A stretch of 25,348 bases of DNA from a virus, in IMG/VR virus record IMGVR_UViG_3300025759_000638, positions 1 through 25,348 of that record; one strand, written 5' to 3'. Shown here in pieces: positions 1,794 to 12,818 of the stretch; the stretch's first letter is position 1, and the number at the start of each line of letters is the position of its first letter. Made by a program: the position numbers and the translations under genes. The notes under the pieces were generated by a model. It was given only the letters and a program-made list of their open reading frames with translations. It searched no databases and had not been told where the DNA came from.

Positions 1794-1820
1794 AAAAAAA
1801 GAGGGCAAAAAGCCCTCTTT
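1794..1820 (-). terminator. intrinsic terminator for leftward transcripts
   Basis: AAAGAGGGC, loop AAAAA, GCCCTCTTT (1798-1820). On the minus strand the stem is followed by a run of T residues (the A run from 1800 back to 1794). It ends the candidate RNA and sits just beside inverted-repeat element 1. Confidence 0.85.
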
Positions 1821-2192
1821 AGTTGGTGTGAAAATCTTTTGATTGTTGTTAAGTAATCTTTCGATAACCTAAGTTTTAAATTTTCAGATTGGGCAACGTC
1901 TTATTTTAATTTTGGTTATAGTTAATATAAAACCCAATCCACCAAGCGATTTAAGGAATCAAAAAATCTACCTATCGTTTCCAGGTGATCGTGCTGTCGG
2001 TTAGTCGGCATAGCCTTCCTGTTTTCTAGCGTTCGATTCCCCTTTCGGTTTTCAAGCGTTTAGTTCGATTCCTCAAACCTAGTTAGAGAGGTCGGAGTGC
2101 TTTGCGTTTTCGTTCCTCTCGGTGTCCTCGGTTGCCCTTGGAAGTCGGAGTTCGGAGAGTTGCTTTTCCTCGCCTTATTCCCTCTCTAACAT
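1795..2192 (-). ncRNA. candidate structured non-coding RNA, about 400 nt
   Basis: This gene-free stretch is bounded on the minus strand by a promoter (-10 at 2199-2204) and a strong intrinsic terminator (1794-1820). The transcript would begin at about 2192 with AUGUUAGAGAGG. Its GTTAGAGAGG (2190-2181) pairs perfectly with CCTCTCTAAC (2091-2082), closing an 89-nt domain. Further pairings are a 7-bp GATTGGG/CCCAATC helix (1887-1893 with 1933-1939) and a small ACCT/AGGT hairpin (1970-1986). The 1960-2190 part is richer in GC than its surroundings. A GTTCGATTCC-like sequence occurs twice on the plus strand (2031-2040 and 2063-2072), but no tRNA fold closes around either copy. It does not match the parts of RNase P RNA or tmRNA that I can recall. 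Confidence 0.5.
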
Positions 2193-5137: not shown

Positions 5138-5166
5138 TTGACATCAATGTCAGTTTTTGCTATAAT
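5138..5166 (+). promoter_or_regulatory. late-type consensus promoter before the small terminase gene
   Basis: TTGACA (5138-5143), 17 bp, TATAAT (5161-5166), with a TTTTTGC stretch just before the -10. The same arrangement recurs at 12822 and 17291. The expected start (about 5173) falls on the ATG of the next gene, so the mRNA may be leaderless. Confidence 0.8.
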
Positions 5167-6523: not shown

Positions 6524-6780
6524 TGGCAGAATTAATAGCAGAGTTCGGATTTCCAATTGTAGCAATGGTTGGACTAGGATATTTCGTATACTATGTATGG
6601 AGAACGATGATAGGAGTTATCGGTCCTGCAATCAAAGAGATGCATTTTGCACTTATAAAGTTAATCGATCAAATAAGAATGTTAGACAACGACATGATCA
6701 GGCTGCAGCAAAAAGTAAATACAATACTGCAAATGAAAGAAAATGAGAAAAAGCGTTCTACTACTACTAATCGCAAGTAG
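6523..6780 (+). CDS. small membrane protein, paralogue of the 5980 product, 85 aa
   Basis: Starts in a TAATG overlap. One membrane helix at residues 8-30 (FPIVAMVGLGYFVYYVWRTM) is followed by an amphipathic coil (LIKLIDQIRMLDNDMIRLQQ) and a basic tail. The IRMLDNDMIRLQQKV segment matches IKTMNNDMIRLDTSV of the 5980 product. It overlaps the signal peptide region of the first curlin gene by 38 bases, tying it to that operon. Confidence 0.6.
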   Translation: MAELIAEFGFPIVAMVGLGYFVYYVWRTMIGVIGPAIKEMHFALIKLIDQIRMLDNDMIRLQQKVNTILQMKENEKKRSTTTNRK

Positions 6781-7534
6781 CCTACAAGCAGACGATAACC
6801 ATGTACATATAGATCAATCTGGAGCAAATATGCAAATGGAAATTGATCAAATTGCAGGAACAATCAATAAAGTAGACCTTTCAATTGATGGTACTAGTAA
6901 CTCCCTCGACATTGATCAGTGGGGAAGTAATAACGAGGTATCATGGGTTGACTACTGGGGCTCGGGTGCGAGCTGGGGTGGAGACTTAGACGGAAACAAC
7001 AACTCACTTCATTTTTACCAGTATTGCTCACGAGGCGCTAACTGTGCTAAGAGTGATGTAGGCTTTCATGTATGGGGAGATAGAAATAATGTTCGTTGGG
7101 GTCAAGGTGGTATACTTGATGATATAGATGATACTACTTTTGGAAACGATGGCGATGAAGGTGGTGGATCAAAACTCAATCTTGATATTCACGGAAACGA
7201 CAACAAACTTGCAGGAGTACAAAGAAACGGAAGTGCAAACGTATGGAGTGGACACACTGCAACAATTTACTTATATTCAGACGATAATGAAGTATGGGTA
7301 AATCAAAATACAGATGGAGCAAAAACGTTTAGTCTAACAACAAATAATGATGAGAATAGTGTAAGTGTAGAACAGACAGGATATGCAGCACATACAGGAA
7401 CAATTACTTTAACAGGTAGTTCTCCAACAACATTAAATTTAACACAACAAAGCAATACAGCACAATCTTATAGTTTAACACAAAATTGTGTAACTATAGG
7501 CGGTTGCTCAGTATCAGTGACACAAGGACAATGA
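6743..7534 (+). CDS. secreted curlin-repeat protein (CsgA/CsgB-like), 263 aa
   Basis: A Sec signal peptide of 16 residues (MRKSVLLLLIASSLQA, cut before DD) is followed by spaced curlin-type repeats with Asn, Ile and Gln at fixed distances, such as HIDQSGANMQMEIDQIAG, NSLDIDQWGSNNEV and VSVEQTGYAAHTGTITLTG. In curli these strand-loop-strand units stack into an amyloid beta-solenoid. This protein is about 100 residues longer than E. coli CsgA, is rich in Asn, Asp, Gly and Trp, and ends with a possible disulfide (NCVTIGGC). The paralogue is at 8818. The csgF- and csgG-like genes directly after it identify the likely export route. Whether it polymerises is unknown. Confidence 0.8.
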   Translation: MRKSVLLLLIASSLQADDNHVHIDQSGANMQMEIDQIAGTINKVDLSIDGTSNSLDIDQWGSNNEVSWVDYWGSGASWGGDLDGNNNSLHFYQYCSRGANCAKSDVGFHVWGDRNNVRWGQGGILDDIDDTTFGNDGDEGGGSKLNLDIHGNDNKLAGVQRNGSANVWSGHTATIYLYSDDNEVWVNQNTDGAKTFSLTTNNDENSVSVEQTGYAAHTGTITLTGSSPTTLNLTQQSNTAQSYSLTQNCVTIGGCSVSVTQGQ

Positions 7535-7554
7535 AAGAAGAATTTGGAAGTGGA

Positions 7555-8040
7555 ATGAGCACTGCAGTAAAATACATAATTGCAGCTGGACTCATAGGAT
7601 TTTTACTAAACCAAGCATTATTTGCAGATGAAATGGTACACAAGTTCAAAAGTCCTTCCTTCAACGGTCAAGGCATTTCAGCACATTACCTAACAATCGA
7701 AAATCAAGAAACAAACAGACAAAATGAGATCAAACAAGCATTACAAGATGCACTAGAAGAAGCAGAAAGAGACGCACAGAATACAACTCTTGCAAGATTT
7801 ATTAAAAATTTAGAAAGTAGAATTTATTCACAACTTAGTAGAGATCTAGTTGATAATTTATTCGCAGATGGAATAGCAAGTGCAGCAACAGGAGTCATTG
7901 AACTTCAAGGTAACTATATAGAGTACTCAAGTGATGGAATCACTGTGACACTCAAAGTTACGGACAGTGAGGGAAATGTTACAGAGATCACAATACCTAT
8001 CGGTAGTTTCGGCGATTTCAGTCTTGATGGTGACGGCTAG
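7555..8040 (+). CDS. csgF: CsgF homologue, curli assembly factor, 161 aa
   Basis: The start at 7555 gives a clean signal peptide (STAVKYIIAAGLIGFLLNQA, cut after LFA at 24) with GGAAG upstream. An upstream ATG at 7531, in a CAATGA overlap with the curlin stop, is an alternative. The mature N-terminus has FKSPSFNGQG, matching the F.NP.FGG motif by which CsgF enters the CsgG pore. A helix (LARFIKNLESRIYSQLSRDL) and a C-terminal beta hairpin (NYIEYSSDGITVTLKVTD) also match E. coli CsgF in order. In curli, CsgF extends the CsgG channel and helps nucleation at the surface. Its end overlaps csgG by 65 bases. Confidence 0.85.
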   Translation: MSTAVKYIIAAGLIGFLLNQALFADEMVHKFKSPSFNGQGISAHYLTIENQETNRQNEIKQALQDALEEAERDAQNTTLARFIKNLESRIYSQLSRDLVDNLFADGIASAATGVIELQGNYIEYSSDGITVTLKVTDSEGNVTEITIPIGSFGDFSLDGDG

Positions 8041-8821
8041 CTGTATGCTGGCGCCTGGCAAAGATGTCAGAGATTTTATAAATAACAATCGTCATCTTAC
8101 TGTAGAAAACGTAGCTCAAGTAAGAGAGTTACATAACGAAGAACTATATGCAATTAAAAGAGTTTCTACACCCGCACCTGTAATAGCAATCTATAAGTTT
8201 CCAGACTTAACAGGGCAAAGAAAAAGTAATTCAACTTTTGCACTTTTTAGCACTGCAGTAACAATGGACCCTGCAAGTTTGCTTATTCGTGCATTTAAGC
8301 ATGCAGGAAATGGAAAGTTCTTTCGAGTAGTTGAAAGAGCTGGGTTAGATCATCTTACAAAAGAAAGACAACTTATTCGTTCTACTAGAAATAGTTTGAA
8401 TGAAAAAGAGCAAGTTCTGCCACTACTATTTGCAGGCTTGCTAATTGAAGGCGGTGTTATCGGGTATGACACCAATCTACGATCAGGAGGTATTGGAGCA
8501 AGGTATCTGGGTATTGGAGCTCAGAAACAATATCGTGAAGATACTGTATCAGTTTCAATTAGAACTATCTCAGTCTCATCTGGTGAAGTTTTAATGGAAG
8601 TACTTGTGACAAAGACTATTCTCTCGGTAGGAGTGTCACAGGATGTATTTAGGTTTATAGAACTTGGAACAGAATTAGTCGAAGTAGAAAATGGAGCAAC
8701 TAAGAACGAAAGTGTGACGATTGCTTTACAAAAAGCTTTAGAGACAGGAGTTTTACAAACAATCTATGAAGGGGAGAAAAAGGGGTACTGGAAAACAGCA
8801 CCCGCTGGGGAAGCACAATGA
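7976..8821 (+). CDS. csgG: CsgG homologue, outer-membrane lipoprotein pore, 281 aa
   Basis: The start at ATG 7976 follows GAGGG; a GTG at 7967 is possible. A lipoprotein signal ends in VTASC, with Cys23 to be acylated. The mature part follows E. coli CsgG closely in order: YKFPDLTGQ, FSTAV, ERQLIRSTR, IEGGVIGYDTNLRSGGIGAR, GIGAQKQY, SGEVL, TKTILS, VFRFIELGTEL and an ALETGV segment. CsgG forms a nonameric outer-membrane channel that secretes curlin subunits. Length fits the family (277 aa in E. coli). Its start region lies inside csgF in another frame, and its stop overlaps the next start (CAATGA). It is the strongest homology call in the operon. Confidence 0.92.
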   Translation: MLQRSQYLSVVSAISVLMVTASCMLAPGKDVRDFINNNRHLTVENVAQVRELHNEELYAIKRVSTPAPVIAIYKFPDLTGQRKSNSTFALFSTAVTMDPASLLIRAFKHAGNGKFFRVVERAGLDHLTKERQLIRSTRNSLNEKEQVLPLLFAGLLIEGGVIGYDTNLRSGGIGARYLGIGAQKQYREDTVSVSIRTISVSSGEVLMEVLVTKTILSVGVSQDVFRFIELGTELVEVENGATKNESVTIALQKALETGVLQTIYEGEKKGYWKTAPAGEAQ

Positions 8822-9570
8822 AATTAGTTGGAGCTAATTTAATACTAGTACTCATTGCAGTATTTACAATTTTTGCAAGTGCAGCTGACAATGAAGTATT
8901 TATAACACAGAGCGGTACGAATGCTCAAATAGAAATCGATCAGATTGGATCAGGAAACACTGTAGAAGGAAATGAAGCCGCAGGTTCAGAACCAATTAGT
9001 GATTTCAAATTAACAGGTAATTCACAAACGATTGATATTGATCAGGTTGGTGACAGTAACATTTTTAGAGGAGATATTGATTCCGATACTTTTACTGGTA
9101 ACTTTAGTTTTACTGGAGATAGTAATGAGTTTGACATTCAATTTGATCCAGCAGGAAGTTATATTTCTGATAATATTACAATGGATGTTACAATTACTGG
9201 AAGCTCAAATGATCTTACTGTAACAGTAGCAAATAATGATAGTGCAGCAAACTTAGATTATGATGCAGTTATTAGTGGTGATTACAATACTTGGGTTACT
9301 GCTATTGATTCAGATAACGTTACATTCAATGTGGATGTAAATGGAAGTAATGGTAGTATAGACTATGATGCAGATGGTTATGCTGTAAACTCAAGCGGAC
9401 ATACATTCATTTTAGATCAAGATGGAGATTATGTCGACTATGTAATCGATCAACAGTCAACAAGTGCTGTGGATTATTTAAACTTACAAATGACAACAAG
9501 TGGTACAAGTGGAAGCGAAGCAAATATTTGCGTTTATCAGTCTGATAACGCTACATCTACAAGCTGCTGA
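8818..9570 (+). CDS. second secreted curlin-repeat protein (CsgA/CsgB-like), 250 aa
   Basis: ATG in a CAATGA overlap with csgG; GGGGAAG upstream. The signal peptide is about 22 residues (cut in FASA/AD). The N-terminus FITQSGTNAQIEIDQIGSGN and then TIDIDQVGDSN parallel the first curlin protein almost position for position. The middle is a long series of Thr/Ser/Asn/Asp-rich strand repeats with few Gln, and the end has two Cys (NICVYQ and the last residue). One of the two proteins may nucleate the other, as CsgB does for CsgA; the sequence does not show which. Theoretically very acidic. Its 3' end encodes the start of the FecR gene in another frame. Confidence 0.8.
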   Translation: MKLVGANLILVLIAVFTIFASAADNEVFITQSGTNAQIEIDQIGSGNTVEGNEAAGSEPISDFKLTGNSQTIDIDQVGDSNIFRGDIDSDTFTGNFSFTGDSNEFDIQFDPAGSYISDNITMDVTITGSSNDLTVTVANNDSAANLDYDAVISGDYNTWVTAIDSDNVTFNVDVNGSNGSIDYDADGYAVNSSGHTFILDQDGDYVDYVIDQQSTSAVDYLNLQMTTSGTSGSEANICVYQSDNATSTSC

Positions 9571-10609
9571 TATAGGAAGCATAAGCGAACTAAAGGGTGA
9601 AGCTTCGGTCAATCGATCAGGCGAAGCCCTTACAGCCGCATTAGATTTAGGAGTTGAATCTTATGACGATGTTAGAACTGCTAATAGTAGGGTGGGTCTT
9701 ACTTTTATCGACGACTCTGTTGTGCGTCTTACTGAGCATTCGAAGCTTATACTTGACGAGGTTATATTTGATCCAGATCCTTCTAAGTCTAAGATTGGAC
9801 TTACTTTTGCTTCGGGAACAGCAAGATTTATTACAGGAAAAATAGGTGGAATTAATAAAGAAAATATCAAGATCAATACTCCGACTTCTCAAATCGGTAT
9901 TCGAGGAACTGACTTTACTGTTACTGTTGATGAGCTGGGTCGTAGCTTGGTTATTCTTCTACCTGATATCGATGGGATATCATCTGGCGAGATCACAGTG
10001 GAGACCGCAGCGGGATTGGTCATTCTTAACAAACCGTATGAAAGCACCACCACATCCGTCTGGGAAAGTTCACCAACGCAACCAGTAACACTCGATATCA
10101 CACTAGACTTAATTGACAATATGCTCATAGTAAATGAGCCAAAAGAAGAAGAAGTAGTAGAAGAAACAAATAATGTAAGAACTGGAGACTTACTTGATTT
10201 TAATGATTTAGACGTAGACCTACTTAATGAAGATGTGCTAGCAGAAGAAGATTTAGAATTTACAGAACTTGACATTAACTTTTTAGATGTTAACTTTTTC
10301 GAAGACTTACTTGAAGTCATAGAAGAAATAGATCGATTAAGAGAAGGAAACGAAAAAGATAAAAAGACAGCATCAGTAGGAAAAGCTACTATCGAGGGTA
10401 CAACGATTGGTCAAGATCCTACTACTCAAATTATTACTATAGTAGATACACAGAATATAAACATATCGAGACAAGTAAATGACTTTGCAAAAGTTCGACT
10501 TGACTCACAGGCAGGAGTAACTTTAATTATATCACAAGATGGAAAAGAATATAACATTATTATTAATAAAGGTGGGACTTCTAATATTATCATTAGACAG
10601 TCCAGCTAA
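9500..10609 (+). CDS. secreted FecR-domain protein, 369 aa
   Basis: GTG start (9500, or 9509), overlapping the curlin gene by 71 bases. A signal peptide of about 22 residues ends in LHLQA/AD. Residues about 25-185 form a FecR domain: GSISELKGEASVNR, a RVGLTFIDDSVVRL segment, and TPTSQIGIRGTDFTV, the family's most conserved motif. An unusually acidic, low-complexity stretch (about 213-285) follows, and then a beta-rich tail with NINISRQ and SNIIIRQ, which resemble single curlin half-repeats. FecR-domain proteins act in the periplasm as ligand-binding or signalling partners, and in bacteria they are often encoded beside CHASE2 cyclases, as here. It is not the sigma-regulator FecR itself, since no N-terminal cytoplasmic part is present. 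Confidence 0.8.
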   Translation: MVQVEAKQIFAFISLITLHLQAADIGSISELKGEASVNRSGEALTAALDLGVESYDDVRTANSRVGLTFIDDSVVRLTEHSKLILDEVIFDPDPSKSKIGLTFASGTARFITGKIGGINKENIKINTPTSQIGIRGTDFTVTVDELGRSLVILLPDIDGISSGEITVETAAGLVILNKPYESTTTSVWESSPTQPVTLDITLDLIDNMLIVNEPKEEEVVEETNNVRTGDLLDFNDLDVDLLNEDVLAEEDLEFTELDINFLDVNFFEDLLEVIEEIDRLREGNEKDKKTASVGKATIEGTTIGQDPTTQIITIVDTQNINISRQVNDFAKVRLDSQAGVTLIISQDGKEYNIIINKGGTSNIIIRQSS

Positions 10610-10919: not shown

Positions 10920-11040
10920 TTTACTTACTGCTTGCAGTACTGTACCACGAGAACCTCAAGAAGATAAATGGGGTCAATGGGACTTCTGTGAGCAGTGGGC
11001 TTATGACGGCGAATCATGGATGCAATGTATGAACTCATGA
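10882..11040 (+). CDS. short lipoprotein, 52 aa
   Basis: An overlooked short gene. It has a type II signal peptide with a textbook lipobox LTAC (Cys18). The 35-residue mature part is rich in Trp, Gln and Glu and has two further Cys (FCEQWAYDGESWMQC) that could form a disulfide. The start overlaps the previous gene by 38 bases, and the stop overlaps the cyclase start (CATGA). It has the size of a phage Rz1-type spanin lipoprotein, but no Rz partner is adjacent. A role in anchoring or regulating the CsgG/FecR system is as likely. Confidence 0.7.
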   Translation: MKALVLHLFIAGSLLTACSTVPREPQEDKWGQWDFCEQWAYDGESWMQCMNS

Positions 11041-12818
11041 TTCGACTACTAATTGCTTCAGGACTTCTAGCACTTTTTATTTGGAATCCTTATCCACTAC
11101 AATATTTAGAACTCAAGAGTTATGATACTCTTATTATGTCAACAGAACCAGTACAAAATGAAAACATACTGATTGTTGATTTAGACGAAGACTTAGTAAA
11201 AGCCTATGAAGGTTATCCTTTACCGAGAAGTCTTTATGCGGAGCTGATTAGAAAAACAAACGCAGTTCCAGGGATCACAGTGTTGATGCCCGATCCTGAT
11301 ATAAGAGGAAAAGAAAATGATTTAACGCTGAGTAATGCCATGATGAATGTACCTACAGTACTCGCATCAGCAGCATCTACTCAATCGTCAAAAGAAAGCC
11401 TACATGTAGGCACAGCACAATTAGGAGGTGATCCACTACCATGGCTATACGAATATCCAGGAATTTTACGTACAGAGTCTACTCTGGAGTTAAGCAGAAA
11501 GGGGCTAGGGCTGATAACCGCTACGCCGGAAATAGACGGGGTTACTCGTCGTATTCCCCTAGTCGTAAACGTCCAGTCAAAACTTTACCCAGCTTTCGGC
11601 TTGGAACTCTTAAGACTCGCAGTAAACGATCCTTCGTACCAGCTAAAAACAACACAAGAAGGTATTAGTTGGATAAGGGTACCTAGTTACCCTCTAATGA
11701 ATACCGACGCTAACGCTCGTATCTTTTTAGACTGGAATACGAACTTCTATAAACAAACAGGATTAGAGTTTTTAACCAATCCCATCGACGCACCTTTTGT
11801 TATCTTCGGCGTGACAGCAGAAGGTGTCGTCAATCCAACTCCAACTCCAGCAGGGTTGAAGTACCCACATGAAATACAAGCTAACATTTTACATAATCTT
11901 ATTAACGGTAGTGCTCCTTCCACTCCTACTTGGGCTGGTGGATCAGAGTTACTGGGAGGATTACTCGCAATATCTATTATTGCACTCACAGCATCCTATG
12001 TCTGGCTTAGCTTACCCACATTAATTATACTTATAGCTGGGTTACTATATGGAGCCTGGTATGCGTTTCAATCTTCTTATTTGATAGACGTCAGCGGGAT
12101 TATTTTAATCTCGTTTTTATTCTGGAGTATTGAAAGTTTCCGTAATTTCATTACGCAGTATTTGCTGAGATTACAAATTAAACAACAATTCGGAACGTAT
12201 GTATCTCCCGACCTTGTAAAAAAATTACAGGAGGACCCAACGTTACTGAGATTGGGTGGGGAGACGAAACGACTTACTTTTCTTTTTTCAGATATTCGAG
12301 GATTCACACCAATTTCTGAAAAATACCAAAAAGATCCACAAGGTCTTACAAAATTAATCAACCGATTTTTGGATAATCAAACAGAAATCATACTAAAACA
12401 TGGCGGAACCATAGATAAATACATGGGAGATTGTATTATGGCTTTCTGGAACGCACCACTTGACATCGATGATCAAGAAAGAAAGGCTACAGAGTGTGTA
12501 CTCGAGATGCGAGAGGCACTAGGAGAATTAAATGAAAAACTTAAAGAAGAAAATCTTGACCAAATTAATACAGGAGCAGGAATTAATACTGGCTTATGTG
12601 TCGTTGGTAACTTTGGTAGTAGTAGTCGTTTTGATTACTCTGTCTTAGGAGATTCTGTAAACTTAGCTGCTCGACTAGAGTCCTCATGTAAGAACTACGA
12701 TGTCGATCTTGTCATATCTGAGTACAGTTTAGTTGACGGATATGACTACGAGTTCTTAGACGAAGTAACGGTAAAAGGCAAATCCGAACCAGTCAAAATA
12801 TATACCATCAGAAAATAA
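11037..12818 (+). CDS. CHASE2-class III adenylate/guanylate cyclase, 593 aa
   Basis: The start is in an ATGA overlap (an ATG at 11016 would add 7 residues, and the numbering here uses that 600-aa form). After an N-terminal membrane helix comes a CHASE2 sensor domain (about 35-300, periplasmic), then three membrane helices (about 310-370), then a class III cyclase domain (418-600). Metal-binding Asp426 (FLFSDIRGF) and Asp472 (IDKYMGD), base-binding Lys468, and transition-state Asn549 and Arg553 (GDSVNLAAR) are all present, so it should be active. Lys468 with Ser542 suggests ATP as substrate. It would sense a periplasmic signal, perhaps via the FecR protein, and make cAMP in the host. It is the last gene of the operon; a promoter follows four bases later. 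Confidence 0.9.
   Translation: MIRLLIASGLLALFIWNPYPLQYLELKSYDTLIMSTEPVQNENILIVDLDEDLVKAYEGYPLPRSLYAELIRKTNAVPGITVLMPDPDIRGKENDLTLSNAMMNVPTVLASAASTQSSKESLHVGTAQLGGDPLPWLYEYPGILRTESTLELSRKGLGLITATPEIDGVTRRIPLVVNVQSKLYPAFGLELLRLAVNDPSYQLKTTQEGISWIRVPSYPLMNTDANARIFLDWNTNFYKQTGLEFLTNPIDAPFVIFGVTAEGVVNPTPTPAGLKYPHEIQANILHNLINGSAPSTPTWAGGSELLGGLLAISIIALTASYVWLSLPTLIILIAGLLYGAWYAFQSSYLIDVSGIILISFLFWSIESFRNFITQYLLRLQIKQQFGTYVSPDLVKKLQEDPTLLRLGGETKRLTFLFSDIRGFTPISEKYQKDPQGLTKLINRFLDNQTEIILKHGGTIDKYMGDCIMAFWNAPLDIDDQERKATECVLEMREALGELNEKLKEENLDQINTGAGINTGLCVVGNFGSSSRFDYSVLGDSVNLAARLESSCKNYDVDLVISEYSLVDGYDYEFLDEVTVKGKSEPVKIYTIRK

Follow-up and report, generated by a model that had tools for sequence, protein, structure and literature searches.

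The question raised by this locus is what is made from a gene-free stretch of a virus record of 25,348 bases (the whole stretch of DNA analysed, referred to here as the window), which carries phage terminase, portal, protease and capsid genes. In an earlier note it had been proposed, from the letters of the window, that the stretch encodes a structured RNA of about 400 nt with its own promoter and terminator. This proposal is borne out by compensatory changes in long-range helices of related loci and by a TATAAT box that is kept in all six members of the family described here, and the product of the locus is very probably a multi-domain structured RNA, comprising a 5' domain closed by a helix P1, the helices P2 and P3 and a terminator, whose structure has been kept by compensatory change. 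Our best explanation for its function, to which we assign a probability of roughly 0.4, is that it is a free-standing structured RNA with a role in replication at a putative origin adjoining it.

As judged from sequence, fold and comparison, the RNA gene in the window, which belongs to a subtype that we call A, occupies positions 1795 to 2190 on the minus strand and is about 395 nt long. The leftward -10/-35 pair that had been noticed before was recovered by a consensus scan as TGCACA-17-TATAAT (minus strand, 2227-2199), with a perfect -10 box and a weak -35 box that agrees with the consensus at four of six positions; the TATAAT is kept in L082, the nearest relative. In all six members the box lies 7-8 nt 5' of a GTT, which is taken as the start. 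The scan covered every member except L103, and it calls a promoter that uses this TATAAT in the window only. The presumed start stands directly before a 10-bp long-range helix, P1, in which GTTAGAGAGG (2190-2181) pairs with CCTCTCTAAC (2091-2082) at ten of ten positions; the helix itself is real and covaries in comparison with L082. At the other end there is, as had been claimed, a strong intrinsic terminator (minus strand, 1820-1798) with nine pairs followed by a T run. Terminators were found by scan at the end of the RNA in the window, L101, L251 and L252; in L082 a hairpin of other sequence with a T run is seen by eye in the same place and the scan lists none, and the RNA of L103 is cut by the contig end, so that the terminator can be counted in five members, by eye only in the case of L082. 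The GC content is indeed raised, being 0.41 in the RNA and 0.53 in its 5' domain as against 0.29 and 0.30 in the flanks and 0.37 in the whole window, and no ORF of at least 60 aa overlaps the RNA. The unit is flanked on both sides by dyads that overlap promoter -10 boxes. The upstream one (2245-2332; arms 79% complementary), a likely operator, overlaps the -10 box of the minus-strand promoter TTGACT-17-TAAAAT (2332-2304), and a matching dyad with fully complementary 19-nt arms lies together with a minus-strand promoter (1770-1742) just past the RNA terminator (1698-1770).

Relatives were found through the terminase genes and then through the RNA itself. The large terminase has no match of at least 60% identity in the phage collection; among the matches listed the identity is about 48-50%, and several of these are phages that we take to be T5-like. 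When the small terminase was used as the query, 52 loci were retrieved, among them L082, whose RNA region is about 80% identical to that of the window. A profile of these two sequences led to L101 (E 9.6e-13) and L103 (E 3.7e-10), and two pattern scans added L251 and L252, bringing the family to six members; each of the five relatives sits in a contig with an IMG set number of its own. With a covariance model of the 5' domain, the six members stood clear among 46 sources, with three weak matches at E of at least 0.9; in 49 whole records the model recovered all four members present and gave one extra match (G019, E 0.053). A model built without the window recovered the window with 37.6 bits (E 3e-7), and the next match reached 14.2 bits. 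A match at L089/L090 (15.9 bits, E 1.1; 0.031 unfiltered) was judged to be due to chance because a small plus-strand ORF, seen by eye, overlaps it. The pattern scans varied in yield: TTTGAGGAATCGAAC gave 67 stretches, none of them RNA-like (best nhmmer E 0.68), GAAAACCGAARGGGGAATC a single stretch, in the L082 contig, GGCTATGCCGACTAAC seven stretches with one true, CATGAGAGNAAAAGNAAC 29 with four true by eye and GGGAAAGTCAAAGCGA 19 with three true, and GAGNAAAAGNAACNCTCCNAA gave 11 viral contigs, five of them true, and 62 genome contigs, none of which, on visual inspection of at most 150 nt per match, showed the context of the RNA.

The part common to all six members is the 5' domain of about 112 nt (minus strand, 2190-2079 in the window), which consists of the closing helix P1, inner helices and a conserved loop, AAAAG[CG]AAC, that stands opposite AACGC and is kept in six of six. 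Between the window and L082, P1 changes from GTTAGAGAGG/CCTCTCTAAC to GTTCAAGGG/CCCTTGAAC, which amounts to two compensatory pairs, with one extra pair in the window; together with one double change in an inner hairpin and four in P3, these are the double changes that separate the two nearest relatives. Covariation in related contigs had been named in the earlier note as a check, and two-sided changes were found in P1, in P3 and in helices of a second subtype, B. For P1 and the inner helix of the 5' domain, aligned in five distinct rows, three of 14 pairs show two-sided changes and slid controls none; one of the three lies in the inner helix, where one row, that of the window, is unpaired in the alignment. 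The covariation score was reached by six of 500 shuffles and the three two-sided pairs by 32 of 500. A single P1 pair is disrupted in three of the five rows, and an inner pair is disrupted in one of them. For the 5' domain alone the covariation counts are modest.

The 3' part of the RNA falls into two subtypes, and A is made up of the window and L082. Here the long arm P2 is formed by GGTTTGAGGAATCGAA (2079-2064) and TTTGATTCCTTAAATC (1963-1948) with 16 pairs (minus strand, 1948-2079), all 16 of which are kept in L082 with three one-sided changes and none broken, partly through G-U pairs. It is followed by the hairpin P3 (minus strand, 1887-1939), in which GATTGGG pairs with CCCAATC at seven of seven positions. 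The counterpart in L082 is GAGAAAG/CTTTCTC, again seven of seven paired and with four double changes relative to the window; in this comparison the arms were set by their conserved neighbours, and full pairing between random 7-mers taken from that RNA has a frequency of 0.0018. In the automatic alignment of the two sequences P3 and most later helices are gapped or partly broken, and some inner helices have one broken pair. Since the helices after P2 mostly fare in this way, the distal hairpins of the fold predicted for the window are unsupported. For subtype B, represented by L252, L251 and L101 with the partial L103 left out, the RNAalifold consensus has 84 pairs, of which 13 (by our pair counter) or 12 (by RNAalifold) are two-sided. 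None of 500 shuffles gave as high a count and slid partners gave 0-3, although these controls are somewhat biased in favour of the structure, as there are three sequences and the structure was predicted from them. Nevertheless, series of two-sided changes that connect stretches separated by 70-120 nt would be difficult to obtain in any other way. One helix of this consensus, helix 16, is broken in L101 as aligned.

It is this covariation, rather than folding energy, that is the decisive evidence. The fold of the whole unit has a z of -4.36, with none of 100 shuffles as low and -5.03 in a repeat run, and the opposite strand one of -1.77, with three of 100 shuffles as low. With the terminator removed, the first 365 nt of the RNA still give -3.46, whereas 12 pieces of equal length drawn at random from the window range from -2.74 to +1.39. 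However, energy alone would not settle the matter, because the other units span -5.08 to +0.55, several being unremarkable (L101 -0.53, L103 +0.55, L094 -0.39), and because the 30 lowest windows listed in a sliding scan of 160 nt, which include the flanking dyads and terminators, leave out the inner part of the RNA (about 1841-2160).

The earlier note could not match the RNA to any known class, and this still holds. Rfam 15, which includes GOLLD, ROOL and OLE, gave no matches at the curated cut-off in the window or in 10 loci. A permissive search of positions 1600-2400 gave 47 matches, all below the cut-off; the strongest E-values belong to microRNA-like matches to the dyads, such as the mir-87-like matches at 1690-1761 and 2251-2323, which are DNA dyads, and a few weak matches (E of at least 0.4) overlap the 3' end of the RNA. 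In the relatives such a search gave two matches below the cut-off in L252 and none in L098. No tandem array was found within 1795-2190 at a score of at least 30, and a type III antitoxin RNA, which we had considered, was rejected for want of tandem repeats there. An 851-nt query that includes the flanks gave short matches in 180 phage records, the best 20 of which cover at most 6% of it, and the matches listed include the terminator, the dyads and a palindrome at 1619-1655. Without its terminator the RNA has no match at E 0.1 in the phage collection, and the same is true of subtype B; there was no match to the RNA in the plasmid collection, and no report of it was found in a literature search. 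On the strength of these searches the RNA is a new family, of a known general kind, the self-standing structured phage RNAs.

That the unit precedes a block of GCGCC-type repeats and DnaA boxes and is transcribed in its direction is well supported by comparison of the loci. In the window the putative origin includes iteron-like repeats of the GCGCC type, in units of 41 nt and 20 nt (537-664), and an exact DnaA box (770-778), which is TTATCCACA when read in the RNA direction. The same place is occupied in L094, L096, L098 and L099 by a promoter, a gene-poor stretch of 236-301 nt and a terminator-like end, all recognised by eye. These four units have little sequence similarity to the RNA and are not matched by the 5' model; a motif, GAGATTATATC[AG]AA, is common to L096, L098 and three members of subtype B (five of 49 records; none with the reversed control). 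They appear from their sequences to be positional counterparts and not family members, linked by place and at best by short motifs. Nine units have downstream sequence and were counted (L103 has none): GCGCC-type repeats follow in all nine, a pair of them 40-43 nt apart in seven, and an exact TTATCCACA in the RNA direction within 1.5 kb in seven, at a distance from the RNA end of 170-300 nt in six units and of about 1.0 kb in the window. The DnaA boxes of L082 all contain one mismatch, and L094 has no box within one mismatch. Among 2,674 control pieces of the same length elsewhere in the same loci there was no exact box and no spaced pair, and a GCGCC-type motif in 7.2%, this motif having been defined after inspection of these same loci.

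From this arrangement we infer that the block of repeats and DnaA boxes is a replication origin. No replication initiator was recognised in family scans of three sets of ten proteins, which cover part of the genes. The repeats start within about 160 nt of the terminator in L101, L251 and L252, and the window and L082 have an ORF between RNA and repeats. The gene before the RNA is alike in L251 and L252, that of L252 resembling polynucleotide kinase 3'-phosphatase, and similar-looking genes are present in L106 and L107. These two loci have the DnaA-box pair with no RNA before it by eye, and a promoter scan found none there; it follows that not every member of the group needs the RNA.

According to the explanation that we favour, the RNA would be made early, together with the leftward genes, its conserved 5' domain would bind a phage or host replication factor, and it would control or help to initiate replication at the adjoining block. 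A comparable role is thought to be played by the RNAs of repA-less mycobacterial prophages, in which, according to excerpts of the report, a transcribed noncoding-RNA region is needed for stable lysogeny as well as for autonomous plasmids (PMC7157519). By their description there, the RNAs of RedRock, Alma and LadyBird are likewise noncoding phage RNAs of a few hundred nucleotides with no recognised initiator gene, and they lie beside a region tied to replication, the counterpart of which would here be the putative origin, but they adjoin parABS in actinobacteriophages (PMC7157519, in part). The RNA II of ColE1, also described there (PMC7157519), is likewise a structured RNA transcribed toward an origin; however, it is a primer with a second, modulating RNA, whereas here a terminator comes in between, and no plus-strand promoter inside the RNA is listed by the consensus scan. 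In the window, L101, L251 and L252 the terminator stands between RNA and repeats, which makes a plain primer of the ColE1 type less likely. A more specific form of the proposal, in which a hitherto undescribed, fast-evolving class of structured RNA is built into an origin of 41-bp-spaced repeats and DnaA boxes in phages with T5-like terminases and works together with an initiator, not as a primer of the ColE1 type, we regard as rather unlikely. The replication role itself is tentative.

The main rival, less probable but to be taken seriously, is that the RNA is a free-standing particle, a scaffold or a factor for takeover of the host, directed at the ribosome, RNA polymerase or a nuclease, and that its proximity to the origin is incidental. 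The unit has its own promoter and terminator, an elaborate fold and no obvious partner gene, and there is a precedent in GOLLD and ROOL, large phage-encoded RNAs whose function is described as not understood in excerpts of a report, GOLLD rising during lysis (PMC12286853). These, too, are large, elaborate and self-standing phage RNAs, and GOLLD likewise combines a conserved region with one that is less so (PMC12286853, in part). However, GOLLD often exceeds 800 nt and the ROOL that was studied has 659 nt, as opposed to about 395 nt here (PMC12286853, in part), their Rfam models are unmatched, and they are often, if not universally, found near tRNA islands, whereas ARAGORN finds no tRNA or tmRNA gene in the 25-kb window. 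It is also at odds with an incidental position that nine units stand in the same place upstream of the repeat block. An anti-defence RNA, which would act on a host immune system as decoy or inhibitor and would diverge quickly in an arms race, would account for a constant position combined with fast divergence of sequence; no Rfam family is matched, and we consider it improbable. A DNA-level element, such as a packaging or termination site or a hairpin in single-stranded DNA, or else a packaging RNA, is suggested by the small-subunit terminase gene about 3 kb away, but we think this very improbable: TATAAT and terminator stand on one strand in the relatives (the hairpin of L252 is listed on the other strand too), the RNA strand folds better (z -4.36 versus -1.77), and the retention of P2 partly through G-U pairs favours a role at the level of RNA. 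That the RNA serves the gene following it to the left as a leader or attenuator, that gene being the minus-strand ORF 1442-1026 in the window, hardly seems credible given the second promoter (1770-1742) past the terminator and the repeats that begin at most about 160 nt beyond it in L101, L251 and L252. Equally little credence can be given to the idea that the RNA is the messenger of a small peptide, of 29 aa in the window and of 43 aa in L082: the frame of subtype A does have a good ribosome site, AGGAAGG, before its ATG, its first 20 codons agree up to synonymous changes and the next few differ mildly, and in subtype B some 30 codons of another frame are common to L103 and L252, but the C-terminal part of the former differs and is shifted between window and L082, nothing corresponds to it in subtype B, the latter falls below 20 aa in L101 and L251, the stretch 5' of the ATG is similarly conserved, and tblastn of the 43-aa peptide against phages gave a best E of 5. 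The longest frames on the RNA strand have 29 (window), 43 (L082), 48 (L101), 35 (L103), 28 (L251) and 77 aa (L252), and none is kept across the six members, which also speaks against decayed coding sequence, the refutation that the earlier note had foreseen.

Large structured RNAs of phages are so far few in number; the present family shows strong covariation and, at about 400 nt, is of a size that can be worked with. The constant position of the gene, upstream of a putative origin, yields a testable and concrete idea of function, and if the RNA acts in replication, RNA-based phage origins would extend beyond mycobacteriophages.

Some further features of the window and the related loci may be recorded. 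The palindrome at 1619-1655, AAATGAGAATCATTCTCATTT, adjoins GGCGCC and resembles what we take to be a Fur box; this stretch has a match of about 92% to Salmonella and Escherichia phages, in one record of which a feature is labelled DTR, and the palindrome core and its variants occur in 21 of 58 loci, some of them in the same contig. Perfect consensus promoters (12 of 12, with TG) are present on the plus strand at 498-526 and 5138-5166, the first pointing into the iteron-like repeats. In L110 a long gene-poor stretch on the minus strand (about 820-1600) follows a TTGACA...TATAAT promoter and contains a strong inverted repeat; it is possibly another RNA, with a fold z of only -1.32. Positions 6743-9570 of the window hold a curli-type cluster in a phage, with CsgF (7486-8040, Pfam E 1.7e-15), CsgG (7967-8821, E 3e-48), a curlin-repeat protein (8818-9570) whose E of 0.0015 is below the Pfam cut-off and a similar-looking protein of 263 aa that has no Pfam match. 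According to excerpts of its description, phage Melnitz, like earlier pelagimyophages, has csgF and csgG and lacks csgA and csgB (PMC9004378). Further along, a FecR-domain protein (9500-10609) precedes a protein of 600 aa (11016-12818) that has CHASE2 and nucleotide-cyclase domains and may be a membrane sensor cyclase.
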